64,000 nucleotides of DNA, taken from NCBI RefSeq assembly GCF_004570875.1, contig NZ_SPQK01000003.1, forward strand, positions 62,001 to 126,000. Direction: 5' to 3'. Source of the DNA: Blastococcus sp. CT_GayMR16 (GTDB lineage: Bacteria > Actinomycetota > Actinomycetes > Mycobacteriales > Geodermatophilaceae). Under the pieces are notes generated by a model. That model did not search any database. It was not told where the DNA came from and saw only the letters and a program-made list of their open reading frames with translations. A program made the position numbers and the translations under genes. This document shows, one piece after another, positions 4,039 through 9,303 of this stretch (its first letter is position 1; each line of letters starts with the position of its first letter).

Positions 4039-4656
4039 GTGCCCTTCAGCCTGACCCCCAAGGACTCGAGCTTCTACCCGTTGTTCACCGCCTCGGCGGA
4101 GAACCTGGTGGCCGCCACCGACGTCCTGAGCGACTTCGTCCACGACCACGCCCGACGTCCGGAACTGAACGACAAACTGCGCGACCTCGAGCACGCCGGC
4201 GACCAGACGACGCACGCGATCTTCCGGCAGCTCAACACCAGCTTCGTGACGCCGTTCGACCGCGAGGACATCTACAACCTGGCCAGTGACCTCGACGACG
4301 TCATGGACTTCGTCGAGGCGGCCGCGGACCTGGTCATCCTGACCGGTCTCGGCACGCTGCCGGCCGAGATGCACCAGCAGGTCGAGCTCCTGCAGCGCTG
4401 CGCCCACACCACGGCCGAGGCCATGCCCCGGCTGCGCACCCTGAAGGACCTCTCCGACTACTGGATCGAGGTCAACCGGATCGAGAACGAGGCCGACAAG
4501 CTGTACCGCCGGCTGCTCTCGCGTCTCTACAGCGGCGAGTTCGACGCGCTGGAGATCATGAAGCTGAAGGAGGTCGCCGACCAGCTCGAGGAGGCGGCCG
4601 ACGCGTTCGAGCACGTCGCCAACGTGGTCGAGACGATCGCCGTCAAGGAGTCCTGA
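4039..4656 (+). CDS. DUF47/PhoU-like accessory protein of the PiT phosphate transporter
   Basis: 205 residues, all helical, spanning the DUF47 (PhoU-like) domain from about residue 8 to 200. Typical elements are an early DLEHAGDQTTHAIFRQLNTS segment and a late IENEADKLYRRLLSRL segment. The GTG start at 4039 has GGAG seven bases before it. The gene lies six bases upstream of a PiT permease, the usual pairing, in which the DUF47 protein is thought to control the permease from the cytoplasm. A TATGCT box at 3969-3974 could be the promoter of the pair. Confidence 0.9.
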   Translation: MPFSLTPKDSSFYPLFTASAENLVAATDVLSDFVHDHARRPELNDKLRDLEHAGDQTTHAIFRQLNTSFVTPFDREDIYNLASDLDDVMDFVEAAADLVILTGLGTLPAEMHQQVELLQRCAHTTAEAMPRLRTLKDLSDYWIEVNRIENEADKLYRRLLSRLYSGEFDALEIMKLKEVADQLEEAADAFEHVANVVETIAVKES

Positions 4657-4662
4657 CCCCGC

Positions 4663-5664
4663 ATGGATGCGGCCTTCCTCGCGCTGCTGCTGATCGTCGC
4701 GGTAGCGCTGGCCTTCGACTACACCAACGGCTTCCACGACGCCGCCAACGCCATCGCCGTGGCGGTCTCCACCAAGGCACTCACGCCGCGGGTGGCCCTG
4801 GCGCTGGCCGCGGTGATGAACCTCGTGGGCGCCCTCATCTCGACCAAGGTCGCCAAGACCGTCGGCGAGGGCATCATCGACGCTCCCCGGGGCTCCGACG
4901 GGCTGAAGATCGTCTTCGCCGCCCTGATCGGGGCGATCACCTGGAACCTGATCACCTGGTACTTCGGCCTGCCGTCGTCGTCGTCGCACGCCCTCATCGG
5001 CGGCCTGGTCGGCGCGGCACTGGCCGCCGTCCACTCCGTGAAGTGGATGGGCATCTTCGACAAGGTCATCATCCCGATGGTGCTCTCGCCGCTGGTGGGC
5101 TTCGGGCTGGGCTACCTCTTCATGCTCGGCATCCTGTGGACCTTCCGGGGCGCGAACGTGTCGAAGGCCAACCGTGGATTCCGCTACGCGCAGATCGTCA
5201 GCTCCGGGACCATGGCGCTGGGCCACGGCATGCAGGACGCTCAGAAGACGATGGGCATCATCACCCTGGCGCTGTTCACCGCCGGCGAGATCGACACGTT
5301 CGACGTCCCCTTCTGGGTGGTCCTGGCGGCCGCCGCGGCGATCAGCGCGGGTACCTACGCGGGCGGGTTCCGCATCATGCGGACCATGGGACGACGGATC
5401 ATCCAGCTCACCCCGGCCGGGGGCTTCTCCGCCCAGACGGTCGCCTCGGGCGTCATGATCACCACGGCCACCGTGTTCGCCGTCCCCGTGTCGACGACGC
5501 ACATCACGACCACCTCGATCATGGGCGTGGGCGCGACCCGTCGGCTGTCGGCGGTCCGCTGGGGCGTGGCGGGCAACATCGTGCTCGCGTGGATCGTCAC
5601 GCTGCCGGCCGCCGGCGCGGTCGCTGCGGTGGCGTTCTACCTGACCGATCTCGTCATCGGCTGA
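4663..5664 (+). CDS. pit: PiT family inorganic phosphate transporter
   Basis: 333 residues, about ten membrane helices. Both PiT repeats are visible: an N-terminal FDYTNGFHDAANAIA (about 19-33) and a C-terminal HGMQDAQKTMGII (about 187-199), the paired signatures that form the phosphate/cation site. It belongs to the short bacterial type without a large central loop. It follows the DUF47 gene by six bases, with AAGGAG inside that gene's end serving as ribosome site. It should import phosphate with protons or as metal phosphate at low affinity. Confidence 0.93.
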   Translation: MDAAFLALLLIVAVALAFDYTNGFHDAANAIAVAVSTKALTPRVALALAAVMNLVGALISTKVAKTVGEGIIDAPRGSDGLKIVFAALIGAITWNLITWYFGLPSSSSHALIGGLVGAALAAVHSVKWMGIFDKVIIPMVLSPLVGFGLGYLFMLGILWTFRGANVSKANRGFRYAQIVSSGTMALGHGMQDAQKTMGIITLALFTAGEIDTFDVPFWVVLAAAAAISAGTYAGGFRIMRTMGRRIIQLTPAGGFSAQTVASGVMITTATVFAVPVSTTHITTTSIMGVGATRRLSAVRWGVAGNIVLAWIVTLPAAGAVAAVAFYLTDLVIG

Positions 5665-5671
5665 GCGGCTC

Positions 5672-7084
5672 ATGACCGACGCTCCTGCACGGCAGTCGGT
5701 CGCGCTCGGCACCGCACCGGGCCGGTGGCTGGTCGTCGTCACGGTGCTGGCGTCGGGCATGGCGTTCCTCGACGCGACGGCCGTGCAGGTGGCGCTGCCC
5801 TCGATCGGCCGCGAGCTCGACGCCTCGCTGTCGGGCCTGCAGTGGACGGTCACCGGCTACACGCTGACGCTGGCGTCGCTCATCCTGCTCGGCGGCTCGC
5901 TCGGCGACCGCTACGGCCGCCGCCGCGTCTTCGTCATCGGGGTGTGCTGGTTCGCCGCAGCCTCCCTGCTCTGCGGCCTGGCCCAGAACACCGGGCAGCT
6001 CGTCGCGGCCCGCGCCCTCCAGGGGGTCGGCGGCGCGCTGCTGACCCCCGGCAGTCTGGCTCTGATCCAGTCCTCGTTCCGGCCGCAGGACCGCGCCCGG
6101 GCGATCGGCCTGTGGTCGTCCCTGGCCGGCATCTCGGGTCTCATCGGCCCGTTCCTCGGCGGGGTCCTCGTCGACACGGTGAGCTGGCGACTGGTCTTCC
6201 TCATCAACGTGCCGTTCGCCGTCGTCATCGTGGCCGTGGCCGGGCGGCACGTCCCGGAGAGCCACGACGCGGGTGGTCACGGTCGCTTCGACGTGCTCGG
6301 CGCCGCCCTGGGCGCCCTGGCGCTCGGTGGGCTGACCTACGCCCTCATCGCGGGTGGCGAATCGTTCACGCGTGCCGACGTGGTGGTCTCGGTCGCCATC
6401 GGCCTCGCCGCCGGCGTGGCCTTCGTGGTGCGCGAGCAGCGGGCGGCCGACCCCATGCTGCCGCTGGGGTTGTTCGGCGACCGGCAGTTCACCGGCGCCA
6501 ACCTCGCCACGCTCGCCGTCTACGGGGCGCTCGGGGGCAGCGGCCTGTTCCTGGTGCTCCAGCTGCAGACCACGCTCGGGTACGACGCCACGGCTGCCGG
6601 CGCGGCCACGTTGCCGACGATCGCGCTGATCACGCTGCTGTCGCCCCGGGCCGGCGCGCTCGCGACGCGGATCGGCCCGCGGCTGCCGATGACCGTCGGC
6701 CCGCTGATCGTCGCGGTCGGCACACTGTGGCTGGCCTGGGTGGACGGCAGCGCTCCCTACGTGGTCGAGATCCTCCCGGGCTCGGTGCTCCAGGGGCTGG
6801 GCATGGCGATAGTCGTCGCTCCGCTGACCGCCACGGTGCTCGGTGCGGCGCCGGACGCGCAGGCGGGGATCGCGAGCGGGGTCAACAACGCCGTGGCCCG
6901 TGCCGCTCAGCTGCTGGCCGTGGCCGCGCTGCCGGTGGCGGTGGGCCTCTCCGGGGACGACTACGCCGACCCCACCGCCTTCACCAGCGGATTCCGGATC
7001 GCGCTGATCGCGTGCGCCGCCCTGTTCGCCGCGGGTGGCGTGGTCTCGTGGCTGACCATCCGGAACGACGTCCTCGAGGGGTAG
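5672..7084 (+). CDS. MFS drug exporter, DHA2 (14-helix) type
   Basis: 470 residues with about 14 hydrophobic helices. Motif A is GGSLGDRYGRRR (about 73-84) after TM2. The TM1 signature FLDATAVQVALPSIGREL and the motif C-like GPFLGGVL in TM5 place it in the EmrB/QacA family of proton antiporters. Such proteins export toxic hydrophobic or cationic compounds; the substrate cannot be predicted. It starts seven bases after the phosphate transporter and may be read from the same transcript. No regulator of its own is adjacent. Confidence 0.9.
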   Translation: MTDAPARQSVALGTAPGRWLVVVTVLASGMAFLDATAVQVALPSIGRELDASLSGLQWTVTGYTLTLASLILLGGSLGDRYGRRRVFVIGVCWFAAASLLCGLAQNTGQLVAARALQGVGGALLTPGSLALIQSSFRPQDRARAIGLWSSLAGISGLIGPFLGGVLVDTVSWRLVFLINVPFAVVIVAVAGRHVPESHDAGGHGRFDVLGAALGALALGGLTYALIAGGESFTRADVVVSVAIGLAAGVAFVVREQRAADPMLPLGLFGDRQFTGANLATLAVYGALGGSGLFLVLQLQTTLGYDATAAGAATLPTIALITLLSPRAGALATRIGPRLPMTVGPLIVAVGTLWLAWVDGSAPYVVEILPGSVLQGLGMAIVVAPLTATVLGAAPDAQAGIASGVNNAVARAAQLLAVAALPVAVGLSGDDYADPTAFTSGFRIALIACAALFAAGGVVSWLTIRNDVLEG

Positions 7085-7106: not shown

Positions 7107-7140
7107 TTGCATATGTCGATCGGCCTGGTAGACATATGCA
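7107..7140 (+). promoter_or_regulatory. Perfect inverted repeat over the leader/TSUP promoter
   Basis: TGCATATGTC (7108-7117) and its exact complement GACATATGCA (7131-7140) flank a 13-base spacer. AT-rich dyads are rare here. The repeat overlaps a possible promoter: TTGCAT at 7107-7112, 16 bases, TAGACA at 7129-7134. With that promoter transcription would start near the GTG at 7142. The dyad is a good candidate operator for a repressor or activator of the sulfur-type leader and permease. Confidence 0.5.
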
Positions 7141-7225
7141 CGTGGCGGCGACGGCGGTGCTCCTCGTGGGGCGGATCCACGTCGACCTGCTGCGGGTCTG
7201 CGCGAGTCGCTGTCCGGGCTGCTGA
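7136..7225 (+). CDS. Cysteine-rich leader peptide (putative attenuator) upstream of TSUP permease
   Basis: A small ORF of 29 codons (ATG 7136, TGA 7223-7225). If transcription starts at the GTG at 7142 it has 27 codons and is leaderless. The peptide contains GRIHVDLLRVCASRCPGC directly before the stop. The core (R)xHVDLLR followed by Cys codons is the pattern of actinobacterial putative leader peptides found upstream of sulfur genes, where ribosome stalling at Cys codons senses cysteine. Three Cys codons fall in the last eight. A TSUP anion permease gene starts 90 bases downstream. The similarity is seen directly; the cysteine-responsive mechanism is inferred. Confidence 0.7.
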   Translation: MHVAATAVLLVGRIHVDLLRVCASRCPGC

Positions 7226-7314
7226 CGCCCCGCGTCTCCCCCCGCCCCTGCTGAACCCGCTGTGCTGCGCCGTGTCCGGGCGCCCGCGGTCCCCTGACTC
7301 GGAGTCCACTTCCC

Positions 7315-8304
7315 GTGAAGACCATCGTCCTGCTCGCCCTCGTCGGCCTGGGCGCGCAGCTCGTGGACGGCAGCCTCGGCATGGCCTACGGCGTCACCTC
7401 CACGACGCTGCTGCTCGCGATCGGGACCAGCCCGGCCGCCGCCTCCGCAACGGTCCACTTCGCCGAGATCGGCACCAGCCTGATGTCGGGGCTCGCGCAC
7501 TGGAAGTTCGGCAACGTCGACTGGAAGGTGGTCGCGAAGATCGGCGTCCCGGGCGCCGTCGGTGCCTTTGCCGGCGCCACCTTCCTGTCCCACCTGTCGA
7601 CCGCCCTGGCCGCGCCGGCGATGTCGCTGATCCTCCTGGCGCTCGGTCTCTACCTGCTCATCCGCTTCACCCTGCGCGGGATCGACCGCCGGCACCTGGG
7701 AAAGCCCATGCGCAAGCGCTTCCTCGCCCCGCTCGGCCTGGTCGCCGGCTTCGTGGACGCCACCGGCGGCGGGGGCTGGGGGCCGATCGGCACGCCCGCG
7801 ATCCTGGCCAGCGGGCGCATGGAGCCGCGCAAGGTGATCGGCTCGATCGACACCTCGGAGTTCCTGATCGCCCTGGCCGCGAGCCTGGGCTTCCTGTTCG
7901 CGCTCGGCTCCCAGGGCGTCGACGCGACCTGGGCACTCGGCCTCCTGGCCGGTGGGCTGGTCGCCGCCCCGATCGCCGCCTGGCTCGTCCGCCACGTCCC
8001 GCCGCGCCTGCTCGGCTCGCTGGTCGGCGGCATGATCGTCCAGACCAACACCCGCACGCTGTTGACCAGCGACTGGATCGATGCCGGCGACGCCGTCCGC
8101 TACTCGGTCTACGCCGTCATCTACGTCGTCTGGGCCGCGGCGGTCGTGCACTCCTTCCGCGCGTACCGCAAGGATCGCGTCCTCGAGTCCGCCGAGGCGG
8201 TCGCCGCCCAGGCCGAGATCCAGGCGAACGTCGCGGCCGACGTCGACCCCGAGCCGGCCGAGGCGCGGGTCCCCGCCGGGCGCCCGAGCGCCCCCCGCGA
8301 CTAG
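7315..8304 (+). CDS. TSUP (TauE/SafE) family sulfur-anion permease
   Basis: 329 residues with about eight membrane helices and a hydrophilic, Ala/Glu-rich C-terminal tail (about 285-329). The start SLGMAYGVTSTTLLLAIG and the second half VDATGGGGWGPIGTP show the internal duplication of TSUP proteins, which move sulfite, thiosulfate, sulfonates or related anions. Start is GTG at 7315 with GGAG about ten bases before. The upstream cysteine-rich leader peptide supports a sulfur substrate, and uptake or export would then respond to cysteine supply (inference). It ends facing the epimerase-like gene. Confidence 0.88.
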   Translation: MKTIVLLALVGLGAQLVDGSLGMAYGVTSTTLLLAIGTSPAAASATVHFAEIGTSLMSGLAHWKFGNVDWKVVAKIGVPGAVGAFAGATFLSHLSTALAAPAMSLILLALGLYLLIRFTLRGIDRRHLGKPMRKRFLAPLGLVAGFVDATGGGGWGPIGTPAILASGRMEPRKVIGSIDTSEFLIALAASLGFLFALGSQGVDATWALGLLAGGLVAAPIAAWLVRHVPPRLLGSLVGGMIVQTNTRTLLTSDWIDAGDAVRYSVYAVIYVVWAAAVVHSFRAYRKDRVLESAEAVAAQAEIQANVAADVDPEPAEARVPAGRPSAPRD

Positions 8305-8319: not shown

Positions 8320-9303
8320 CTAGCGGCCCGCGAGCAGCCGCTCCTCCAGCTCGACCGGCAGGCCCGGTTGCGGAGAGCCGAACGGGGAGACGAACGGCCC
8401 CCCGTCCGCTGTCTGCCACGCCCAGGTGTCGGCCACCGACTCGGCCAGCGGCCGGCTGGGCAGCCCGAGGGACCGCGCCCGGGTCGTGTCGATGTCCCAT
8501 CCCGGGCCGGCGTCCGCCGCCCGCAACCACAGCGGCAGGTGCACCCACTCCTCGACGCCGGCGTCGAGCAGGTCCGCCTCCGGCACCGGCACCCACTCGG
8601 CATCGCTGCCGGTGACGTCCCGGCAGAGGTCGAGGAGGCCGCCGAAGGTGGTCATCCCGTTCGGCCCGGTGGCGTTGACCGCTCCGGTCTCGCCGCGCTC
8701 GGCCATGTCGACGAGCCAGCCGGCCAGGTCGCGGGCGTCCACCAAGGCGATCGGCTGGGCGAGCCCCTCGGCCGGCACGACGACGCGACCCCCGCGGGCG
8801 ATCCGGTCCAGCCACCAGCCGAGCCGGTAGACGTAGTCGTGCGGGCCGATGATCAGCCCCGCCCGCGCGGTGAGGAAGCCGGTCCCGACGGCCGACCCGA
8901 TCTCCCGCTCGGCAAAGGCCTTGTTGGGGCCGTAGTCGTCGTCCTCGGTCGACCAGGTTGCTTCGTCCTCCTCCTTGCCCACCGGGCCCGGAGGCCAGTT
9001 CCGGTACGCGTTGAGGCTGCTGACGAACGCGTACCCGGCGACGTCGCCGAGGGCCGCCGCCGCATTCCGGGCAGCGGCGCGGGTCCGGCAGGAGGTGTCA
9101 ACGACGAGTTCGGGCGCCCAACCGTCGAGCGCCGCCGGCAAGGCGTCGGGGTCGTTCCGGTCACCGTGCAGCGCCCGCGCCCCCTCCGGAGGCTCGCCGG
9201 AGACCCCGCGGGTGAACGTCGCGACGTCGTGCCCGCGCTCGAGCGCCGCCGTCGCGACGTGCCTGCCGAGGAAGTGGGTGCCACCGAGAACGAGGAGTCG
9301 CAT
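8320..9303 (-). CDS. NAD-dependent epimerase/reductase-like protein (extended SDR)
   Basis: 327 residues. The N-terminal nucleotide-binding motif is GGTHFLGRH (about 8-16), the GGTxFLG form of atypical extended SDRs. A serine pair VSSLNAY and a YGPNK (YxxxK) near residue 145 supply the usual catalytic residues. The C-terminal half has a substrate-like domain with two aromatic-rich turns. Relatives are annotated as reductases or epimerases of unknown substrate; some act as RNA-binding proteins. No sugar or isoprenoid genes are nearby, so the substrate is unknown. Confidence 0.8.
   Translation of the reverse strand: MRLLVLGGTHFLGRHVATAALERGHDVATFTRGVSGEPPEGARALHGDRNDPDALPAALDGWAPELVVDTSCRTRAAARNAAAALGDVAGYAFVSSLNAYRNWPPGPVGKEEDEATWSTEDDDYGPNKAFAEREIGSAVGTGFLTARAGLIIGPHDYVYRLGWWLDRIARGGRVVVPAEGLAQPIALVDARDLAGWLVDMAERGETGAVNATGPNGMTTFGGLLDLCRDVTGSDAEWVPVPEADLLDAGVEEWVHLPLWLRAADAGPGWDIDTTRARSLGLPSRPLAESVADTWAWQTADGGPFVSPFGSPQPGLPVELEERLLAGR

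Follow-up and report, generated by a model that had tools for sequence, protein, structure and literature searches.

The window analysed here, the whole 64,000-nucleotide stretch of Blastococcus sp. CT_GayMR16 DNA, carries on its plus strand a gene for a TSUP (TauE/SafE) permease of 329 aa with a GTG start (7315..8304; Pfam PF01925, E 1.7e-42). An unannotated short ORF is located 89 bp upstream of it. The gene that follows the permease (8320-9303) lies on the opposite strand, and therefore the permease mRNA is probably monocistronic. Farther upstream, two adjacent ORFs at 4039-5664 resemble by eye a PhoU-like regulator and a PiT-type phosphate permease, and an EmrB-type efflux gene (5672-7084) lies downstream of this pair.

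The short ORF had been described in the first-pass annotation of the same DNA as a cysteine-rich leader peptide of 27-29 codons. It is present exactly as written: both the ORF list and a check of the sequence place it on the plus strand at 7136-7225, with ATG at 7136, TGA at 7223-7225, and the terminal sequence GRIHVDLLRVCASRCPGC. The peptide contains an HVDLLR core (7178..7195, plus strand). When all six frames of the window are read, the more general motif H[VI]DLxR has a single match, as against none in 20 dinucleotide-Markov random copies of the 64 kb. A degenerate DNA pattern of the HVDLLR core also has a single match in the 4.52 Mb genome; the reversed control pattern has two, and hence the DNA-pattern search taken alone is weak evidence.

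Reading the ORF as a leader of the permease gene implies that it should recur before TSUP orthologues, and it does so throughout the family. The TSUP protein was searched in 98 related genomes, the Blastococcus genome itself included, and 57 of them had a match. The family of the window is represented by 58 genomes, of which 46 have a close TSUP match, giving 47 loci, each oriented by tblastn. A leader with the signature HVDLxR[VI] precedes the permease gene in 45 of the 47 orthologous family loci, window included, and ends 67-121 nt before it. This 45-locus set excludes L058 and L061, which belong to another family, L065, for which local tblastn gave no TSUP, and L069 and L001, which duplicate the window. 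Outside the family, the leader was found in two of 14 further loci (L058 and L061, from one other family of the order), and two distant in-family TSUP paralogues, L063 and L064 (28-31% identity), have no leader. In L058 and L061 the TSUP protein is of 45-46% identity and the leader ends in HIDLLRVSSALCRHR, with the codon TGC at the Cys numbered +11 below.

A scan of named genomes, restricted to the best 80 of 193 confirmed stretches and overlapping the family set with shared strains, gave a similar picture. Here, the leader is carried by 63 of 66 Geodermatophilaceae loci, which come from Blastococcus, Geodermatophilus, Modestobacter, Klenkia, and Trujillonella, one record being labelled as an unverified Bacillus, although its contig is that of a genome belonging to the genus of the window. 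Three loci lack it: L178, and the pair L152 and L206, which coincide with L007 and L032 of the family set. Among the same best 80 of 193, the leader is found in none of the 14 other loci, from Actinoplanes/Paractinoplanes, Plantactinospora, Rhodococcus, Rhodococcoides, Cellulomonas, and Quadrisphaera.

Comparison of the orthologous loci modifies the start of the ORF. The ORF stands, and so does the lower of the lengths given for it earlier, whereas its start is more likely GTG at 7142 (27 codons) than ATG at 7136. An ATG occurs at the latter place in only four of 43 loci, window included, and this start is disfavoured. The leader ORF would then occupy 7142..7225 on the plus strand, encoding MAATAVLLVGRIHVDLLRVCASRCPGC. 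Immediately upstream is an extended -10-like element, TGGTAGACAT (7126..7135, plus strand), with the -10 hexamer TAGACA at 7129-7134; TTGCAT at 7107-7112 on the same strand is a possible weak -35. The TGGTAGACAT box lies 13 nt upstream of GTG 7142, and this arrangement is conserved. The promoter pattern, defined as TGGTAGACA or a near variant, was matched in 43 loci, and in 41 of these, window included, a GTG or ATG is found at a fixed distance of 12-14 nt past the T of the -10 hexamer. In the two failures, L024 and L045, the pattern matches at another site, and L008 and L029 fall outside the pattern. A spacing of 12-14 nt between the -10 box and the start codon is as expected for a leaderless transcript, so the leader mRNA is probably leaderless, with its 5' end at or next to the GTG. 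A strict sigma-70 scanner found no promoter at the -10-like element.

Natural controls for the promoter assignment appear to be provided by the two family loci that lack the leader. In L007, from a fragmented genome, the leader and the spacer are lost and TGGTACACAT is kept immediately before the permease's own GTG. In L032, which is a second copy in one genome, TGGTAGGAAT is kept and the leader is absent. The Blastococcus TSUP orthologue L178 has neither the leader nor a promoter-like box in the 330 bp upstream of it.

The peptide itself is well conserved. Leu -5, Val -4, Arg -2, His, Val, Asp, Leu +3, Arg +5, and Cys +11, numbered from the His, are identical in all 45 loci; thus, within the HVDLLR core only the second Leu varies. 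In codons -5 to 11 around the His, the pooled pairwise pN/pS over the 45 loci is 0.47 in the leader frame versus 1.06 and 3.40 in the shifted frames, the counts being drawn from related sequences and hence not independent. The changes between orthologues therefore lean synonymous, as the leader-peptide reading would predict, and since pN/pS is low in the leader frame only, purifying selection acts on the leader peptide.

The first-pass annotation also pointed to terminal Cys codons, and this holds for one of the three. The middle codon, TGT at 7211..7213 (+11), encodes Cys in 45 of 45 loci and is TGT in 42 of them; it is the proposed sensor and stall codon. The first, TGC at 7199..7201 (+7), is a Cys codon in only 33 of the 45 loci, and the last, TGC at 7220..7222, is variable among orthologues (all three are on the plus strand). 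What is conserved is thus one Cys codon rather than the number of Cys codons, and because only this one Cys is invariant, the leader is not of the polycysteine type.

The resemblance to an actinobacterial leader-peptide pattern, noticed in the first reading of the sequence, proved to be real. The window peptide aligns to the NCBIfam model NF042934, "putative leader peptide" (cis_reg_atten), over the whole profile (positions 1-19 of 19) with a score of 22.2 bits, below the curated cut-off of 27; its match to NF042936 (Ms4527A leader) is weak, with 18.8 bits. When 20 peptides were chosen from the 45, window included, all 20 matched NF042934 at E<=0.01. Of eight orthologue peptides scored singly against this model, scores of 27.8, 31.2, 30.6, and 27 (as printed) place four at or above the cut-off, and the remaining four are under it (25.3, 25.4, 26.9, and 24). 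Judged by these scores, the window leader is a divergent relative of NF042934, and some of its orthologues pass as members.

Other leaders of this type precede sulfur genes. The genome of the window contains three more, one of which scores above the NF042934 cut-off. The first stands before a NirA/sulfite-reductase-like gene, for which no model exceeded its own cut-off and behind which lies cysH; the second before a cysteine dioxygenase gene (L067, contig C44, about 71,165-71,215, minus strand); and the third before a DUF4395 gene, with a sulfurtransferase gene downstream and a thioredoxin-like gene just upstream. A search across the phylum matched 19 of 296 genomes; in most of the genomes searched, no more than 29 candidates were scored in the first round, and absences therefore mean little. 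From 71 of the 89 listed places that were read we obtained 70 leaders, all at distinct places and including the three non-TSUP leaders of the Blastococcus genome; the off-pattern place is L099. For 10 loci chosen from the 70, the following genes encode NIR_SIR, PALP, CDO_I, NMT1_2, FMN_red, two luciferase-like proteins, an SDF symporter, a rhodanese, and a flavin reductase. A TSUP gene was found behind none of the 70 leaders by tblastn up to E 1. Symporter-like genes follow the leaders L143, L147, and L149, the first being SDF by Pfam and the other two alike by eye; possibly, these are cystine importers.

Strong conservation at the peptide level could also mean that the product of the short ORF is a stable small protein with a function in trans, for instance as a partner of the permease. 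However, the same core stands before several unrelated kinds of sulfur genes, and the Cys is followed by only a few more residues before the stop codon. Moreover, the constraint on the TGT codon described below is not one expected of protein function, and we consider a small protein of this kind very unlikely.

In the phylum set, Arg -2, Asp +2, and Arg +5 are identical in all 70 leaders and are encoded by mixed synonymous codons; thus, Arg -2 is encoded by 20 CGC, 21 CGG, 12 CGA, 8 CGT, and 9 AGG. The codon at +11 behaves differently. Cys is found at this position in 66 of the 70 leaders and is encoded by TGT in 62 of the 66, or in 56 of 60 when distinct leader DNAs are counted, the 70 leaders coming from few genomes and the codon counts ignoring relatedness. 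The other Cys codons of the same leaders are 20 TGT versus 69 TGC, and the genes that follow them contain 18 TGT versus 139 TGC (TGT making up about 11% of Cys codons). The same bias is observed in the other samples. In the 45 TSUP loci, where TGT was counted at +11 as given above, all 33 Cys at +7 are TGC; in the named set (best 80 of 193), +11 is TGT in 62 of 63 leaders; and in the genome of the window all four leaders have TGT, compared with 10 TGT versus 110 TGC in 46 ORFs of the window. The exceptions with TGC at +11 are L096, L098, L123, and L148, the two loci of the other family, and three of the 45 TSUP loci. Of the leaders that lack Cys +11, L136 and L137 have the stop codon TGA at that position, as though the constraint were on the site and not on the residue, and L133 and L140 have GGG.

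Because TGT is fixed while the invariant Asp and Arg vary synonymously, selection appears to act at the amino-acid level in the core and at the codon level at +11. This combination suggests one fixed stall codon together with a conserved nascent peptide. The codon of Ser +8 is biased as well (AGC in 37 of 45 loci versus a 22% background), and for this reason an RNA-level contribution to the conservation of the leader may exist and is kept in view. Taken further, TGT kept as three bases, the biased Ser +8 codon, and the conserved promoter region could be ascribed to a DNA or RNA element, such as a regulator site or a pairing element, in which the reading frame is incidental. We regard this as very unlikely, given that pN/pS is low in the leader frame only, that synonymous codons are mixed at the invariant Arg and Asp (five for Arg -2), and that the bases flanking TGT are less conserved than TGT itself. 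A universal anti-Shine-Dalgarno pairing of the TGT codon through the bases UCCGG was also considered and rejected, as TGT is kept before unrelated genes and the next codon differs. No mention of the +11 TGT bias was found in the open-licence literature searched, which is not proof of its being unpublished.

Based on these observations, the leader is quite likely a cis-acting, cysteine-responsive, ribosome-stalling attenuator of the actinobacterial HxDLxR type. Cysteine control of the TSUP permease, proposed in the first-pass annotation, we infer by analogy with the other members of this leader family. When charged tRNA-Cys is scarce, the ribosome would stall with the invariant Cys codon (UGU) in its A site, and the upper exit tunnel would at that moment hold the conserved VxRxHVDLxRV segment. 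A ribosome stalled in this way would cover the stop codon of the leader and roughly the beginning of the spacer, preventing repression of the downstream gene and allowing synthesis of the permease. With ample cysteine, the ribosome would terminate at the stop codon and leave, so that the C-rich spacer would be exposed to Rho, the Shine-Dalgarno site would fold away, or both. The cysteine dioxygenase behind one of the leaders fits poorly with a simple rule by which the controlled gene is on when cysteine is short.

A more general scenario can be formulated for the whole group. A single tRNA-Cys reads UGU by wobble. The HxDLxR leaders might form a large class of arrest peptides that sense cysteine by stalling at one dedicated UGU, located 11 codons downstream of the His; the nascent R-x-H-V-D-L-x-R would help the pause, and a single Cys codon would be sufficient. 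UGU would have been selected over UGC for a sharper wobble pause, and the TSUP permease would have been placed under this control in Geodermatophilaceae. We put this scenario forward tentatively and consider it rather doubtful as a whole.

Two output steps can be envisaged for the attenuator. The first is a TnaC-like switch in which release of the ribosome at the stop codon exposes a Rho-entry site and transcription ends before the permease gene, whereas a stalled ribosome blocks Rho loading. The candidate Rho-entry region is the C-rich, G-poor spacer at 7226..7314 (plus strand), identified by its base composition. Over the first 60 nt downstream of the leader stop codon, the mean C minus G is 0.258 for the 45 TSUP loci versus 0.021 after the 46 window ORFs, some of these control stretches lying inside neighbouring genes; in the phylum set it is 0.192, with positive values in 68 of the 70 loci. 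No terminator-like site was found at the leader or spacer, which is in line with a Rho-dependent output, and Rfam gave no match for this region up to E 1. For the cys leaders of mycobacteria, a Rho mechanism was put forward earlier (PMC1262725) and described there as "rather weak". On the other hand, C-richness is not a Rho assay, and a ribosome stalled at the Cys codon would cover only the first bases of the spacer. We give termination by Rho slightly less than an even chance.

The second possible output is at the level of translation: the spacer or the leader would hide the Shine-Dalgarno site of the permease gene and a stalled ribosome would free it, as published for the mycobacterial polycysteine leaders. 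The site, GGAG at 7301..7304 (plus strand), has a counterpart no more than 24 nt from the start codon in 45 of 45 loci. We folded the leader, the spacer, and the start of the gene, and simulated stalling by masking the ribosome footprint. The Shine-Dalgarno site is predicted to be paired with a probability of 0.5 or more in 46 of 47 loci, with differing partners. In many loci of the Blastococcus/Geodermatophilus group, the predicted partner comprises bases at or just after the leader stop codon, which pair with GGAGUCA; in four loci of the Modestobacter group it is the codons for LLR; and other partners lie elsewhere. With Cys +11 in the A site, masking changes the mean cost of opening the site from 6.80 to 5.21 kcal/mol (-1.59), the largest drop among the eight single codons tested. 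In 20 spacer shuffles the mean change was -0.30 to -1.17, with a mean unmasked cost of 5.75 to 6.44, and none of the 20 reached a drop of 1.59.

These averages conceal considerable differences between loci. The drop exceeds 1 kcal/mol in 20 of the 45 loci versus 9-19 in the shuffles, a small margin, and in none of seven loci of the Klenkia group. For the window's own sequence, simulated stalling leaves the cost practically as it was (4.9 to 4.8 kcal/mol). A duplex scan ranked the stop-region window at offset -6 best in only five of 45 loci and among the top three in 12. A conserved RNA fold of the leader and spacer was sought across the 45 sequences and rejected, local folds differing by genus. 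In these models, occlusion of the Shine-Dalgarno site depends on the genus, and the window sequence gives no evident sign of it. This step is a real possibility, though one that we would expect to fail somewhat more readily than to hold. Because the Shine-Dalgarno effect is absent in the window, exceeds the shuffles by a small margin, and has no shared fold behind it, both output steps are retained for the attenuator, and the step used may differ between genera.

From the putative cysteine control it had been argued that the cargo of the permease is a sulfur anion. An inorganic or organic sulfur anion is indeed most likely; the argument is circumstantial, because the genes controlled by such leaders include cysteine dioxygenase and because the TSUP protein has no solved relative by sequence up to E 1. 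The idea that the TSUP permease is the only sulfate importer is not supported, as the genome contains one SulP match besides; no CysT/W-type permease was found in it above the cut-off. The genome G022, 99% complete, has TSUP and no SulP match, and G023 and G024 have neither, so the presence pattern over these three genomes is not informative. One point of reference is CysZ of C. glutamicum, which we take to be a TSUP protein. As stated in the part of PMC1266029 that deals with it, CysZ is needed for growth on both sulfate and sulfite.

With the attenuator reading, the sulfur genes that are probably run by the ribosome come to include a transporter of the TauE/SafE superfamily, which is poorly understood, and a handle on the cargo of this transporter is gained. 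It also makes testable whether such leaders do no more than count Cys codons or, with UGU as a dedicated sensor, are genuine arrest peptides. What we find most interesting is that a core conserved at the peptide level is combined with a UGU conserved at the codon level, and in the phylum sample the TGT bias spans several unrelated kinds of genes.

Several known systems can be compared with the leader described here. In TnaC and other regulatory arrest peptides, a fixed stall codon is read together with conserved upstream residues. The HxDLxR leaders likewise show conserved residues upstream of a fixed codon, the likeness being one of conservation and the arrest putative; in contrast to TnaC, Cys charging rather than a free ligand is the assumed signal. 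Closest by sequence is NF042934, with which the window leader shares the alignment over all 19 positions, the place of the short ORF directly before a gene, and the sulfur context of the sampled members; it differs in its score of 22.2 versus 27 bits and in its TSUP target, absent behind the 70 phylum-set leaders. Beyond the papers cited here, nothing on an HxDLxR leader family was found in the open-licence literature searched.

A precedent is provided by the leaderless polycysteine short ORFs of mycobacteria (Canestrari 2020, as cited in PMC9031893, PMC13236596, and PMC9094748), of which PMC4633059 is a forerunner. Like them, the window leader is probably leaderless, has Cys codons near its stop codon, stands in a family found before sulfur genes, and weakly matches the Ms4527A leader model. 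Unlike theirs, its Cys residues are not consecutive, being separated by three and two residues, and it has one invariant Cys plus a conserved non-Cys core; a structure hiding the ribosome-binding site is predicted in some genera, while in the window such occlusion is not evident. Short ORFs with Cys codons near the stop have also been described before cys and cbs genes in Mycobacterium, P. acnes, and B. longum (PMC1262725). As far as that description goes, these share with the window leader the lack of a conserved terminator hairpin, the polyY stretches, and a possible role of Rho, and differ in having runs of Cys codons; the likeness is to the description and not to the leader sequences. Eight leader peptides are named for S. 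lividans, with no cysteine one among those listed in the relevant part of PMC8079986. In Rhodobacterales, the uORFC-8-2 motif before cysS (PMC8632094) is likewise a cysteine-codon attenuator in a short uORF; as described there, it has two tandem Cys codons, UGC dominates, and an intrinsic terminator follows, as opposed to the one invariant UGU and no terminator of the window leader. Compared with these systems, the type of leader is known, and its use on a TSUP permease and the fixed Cys codon appear to be new.
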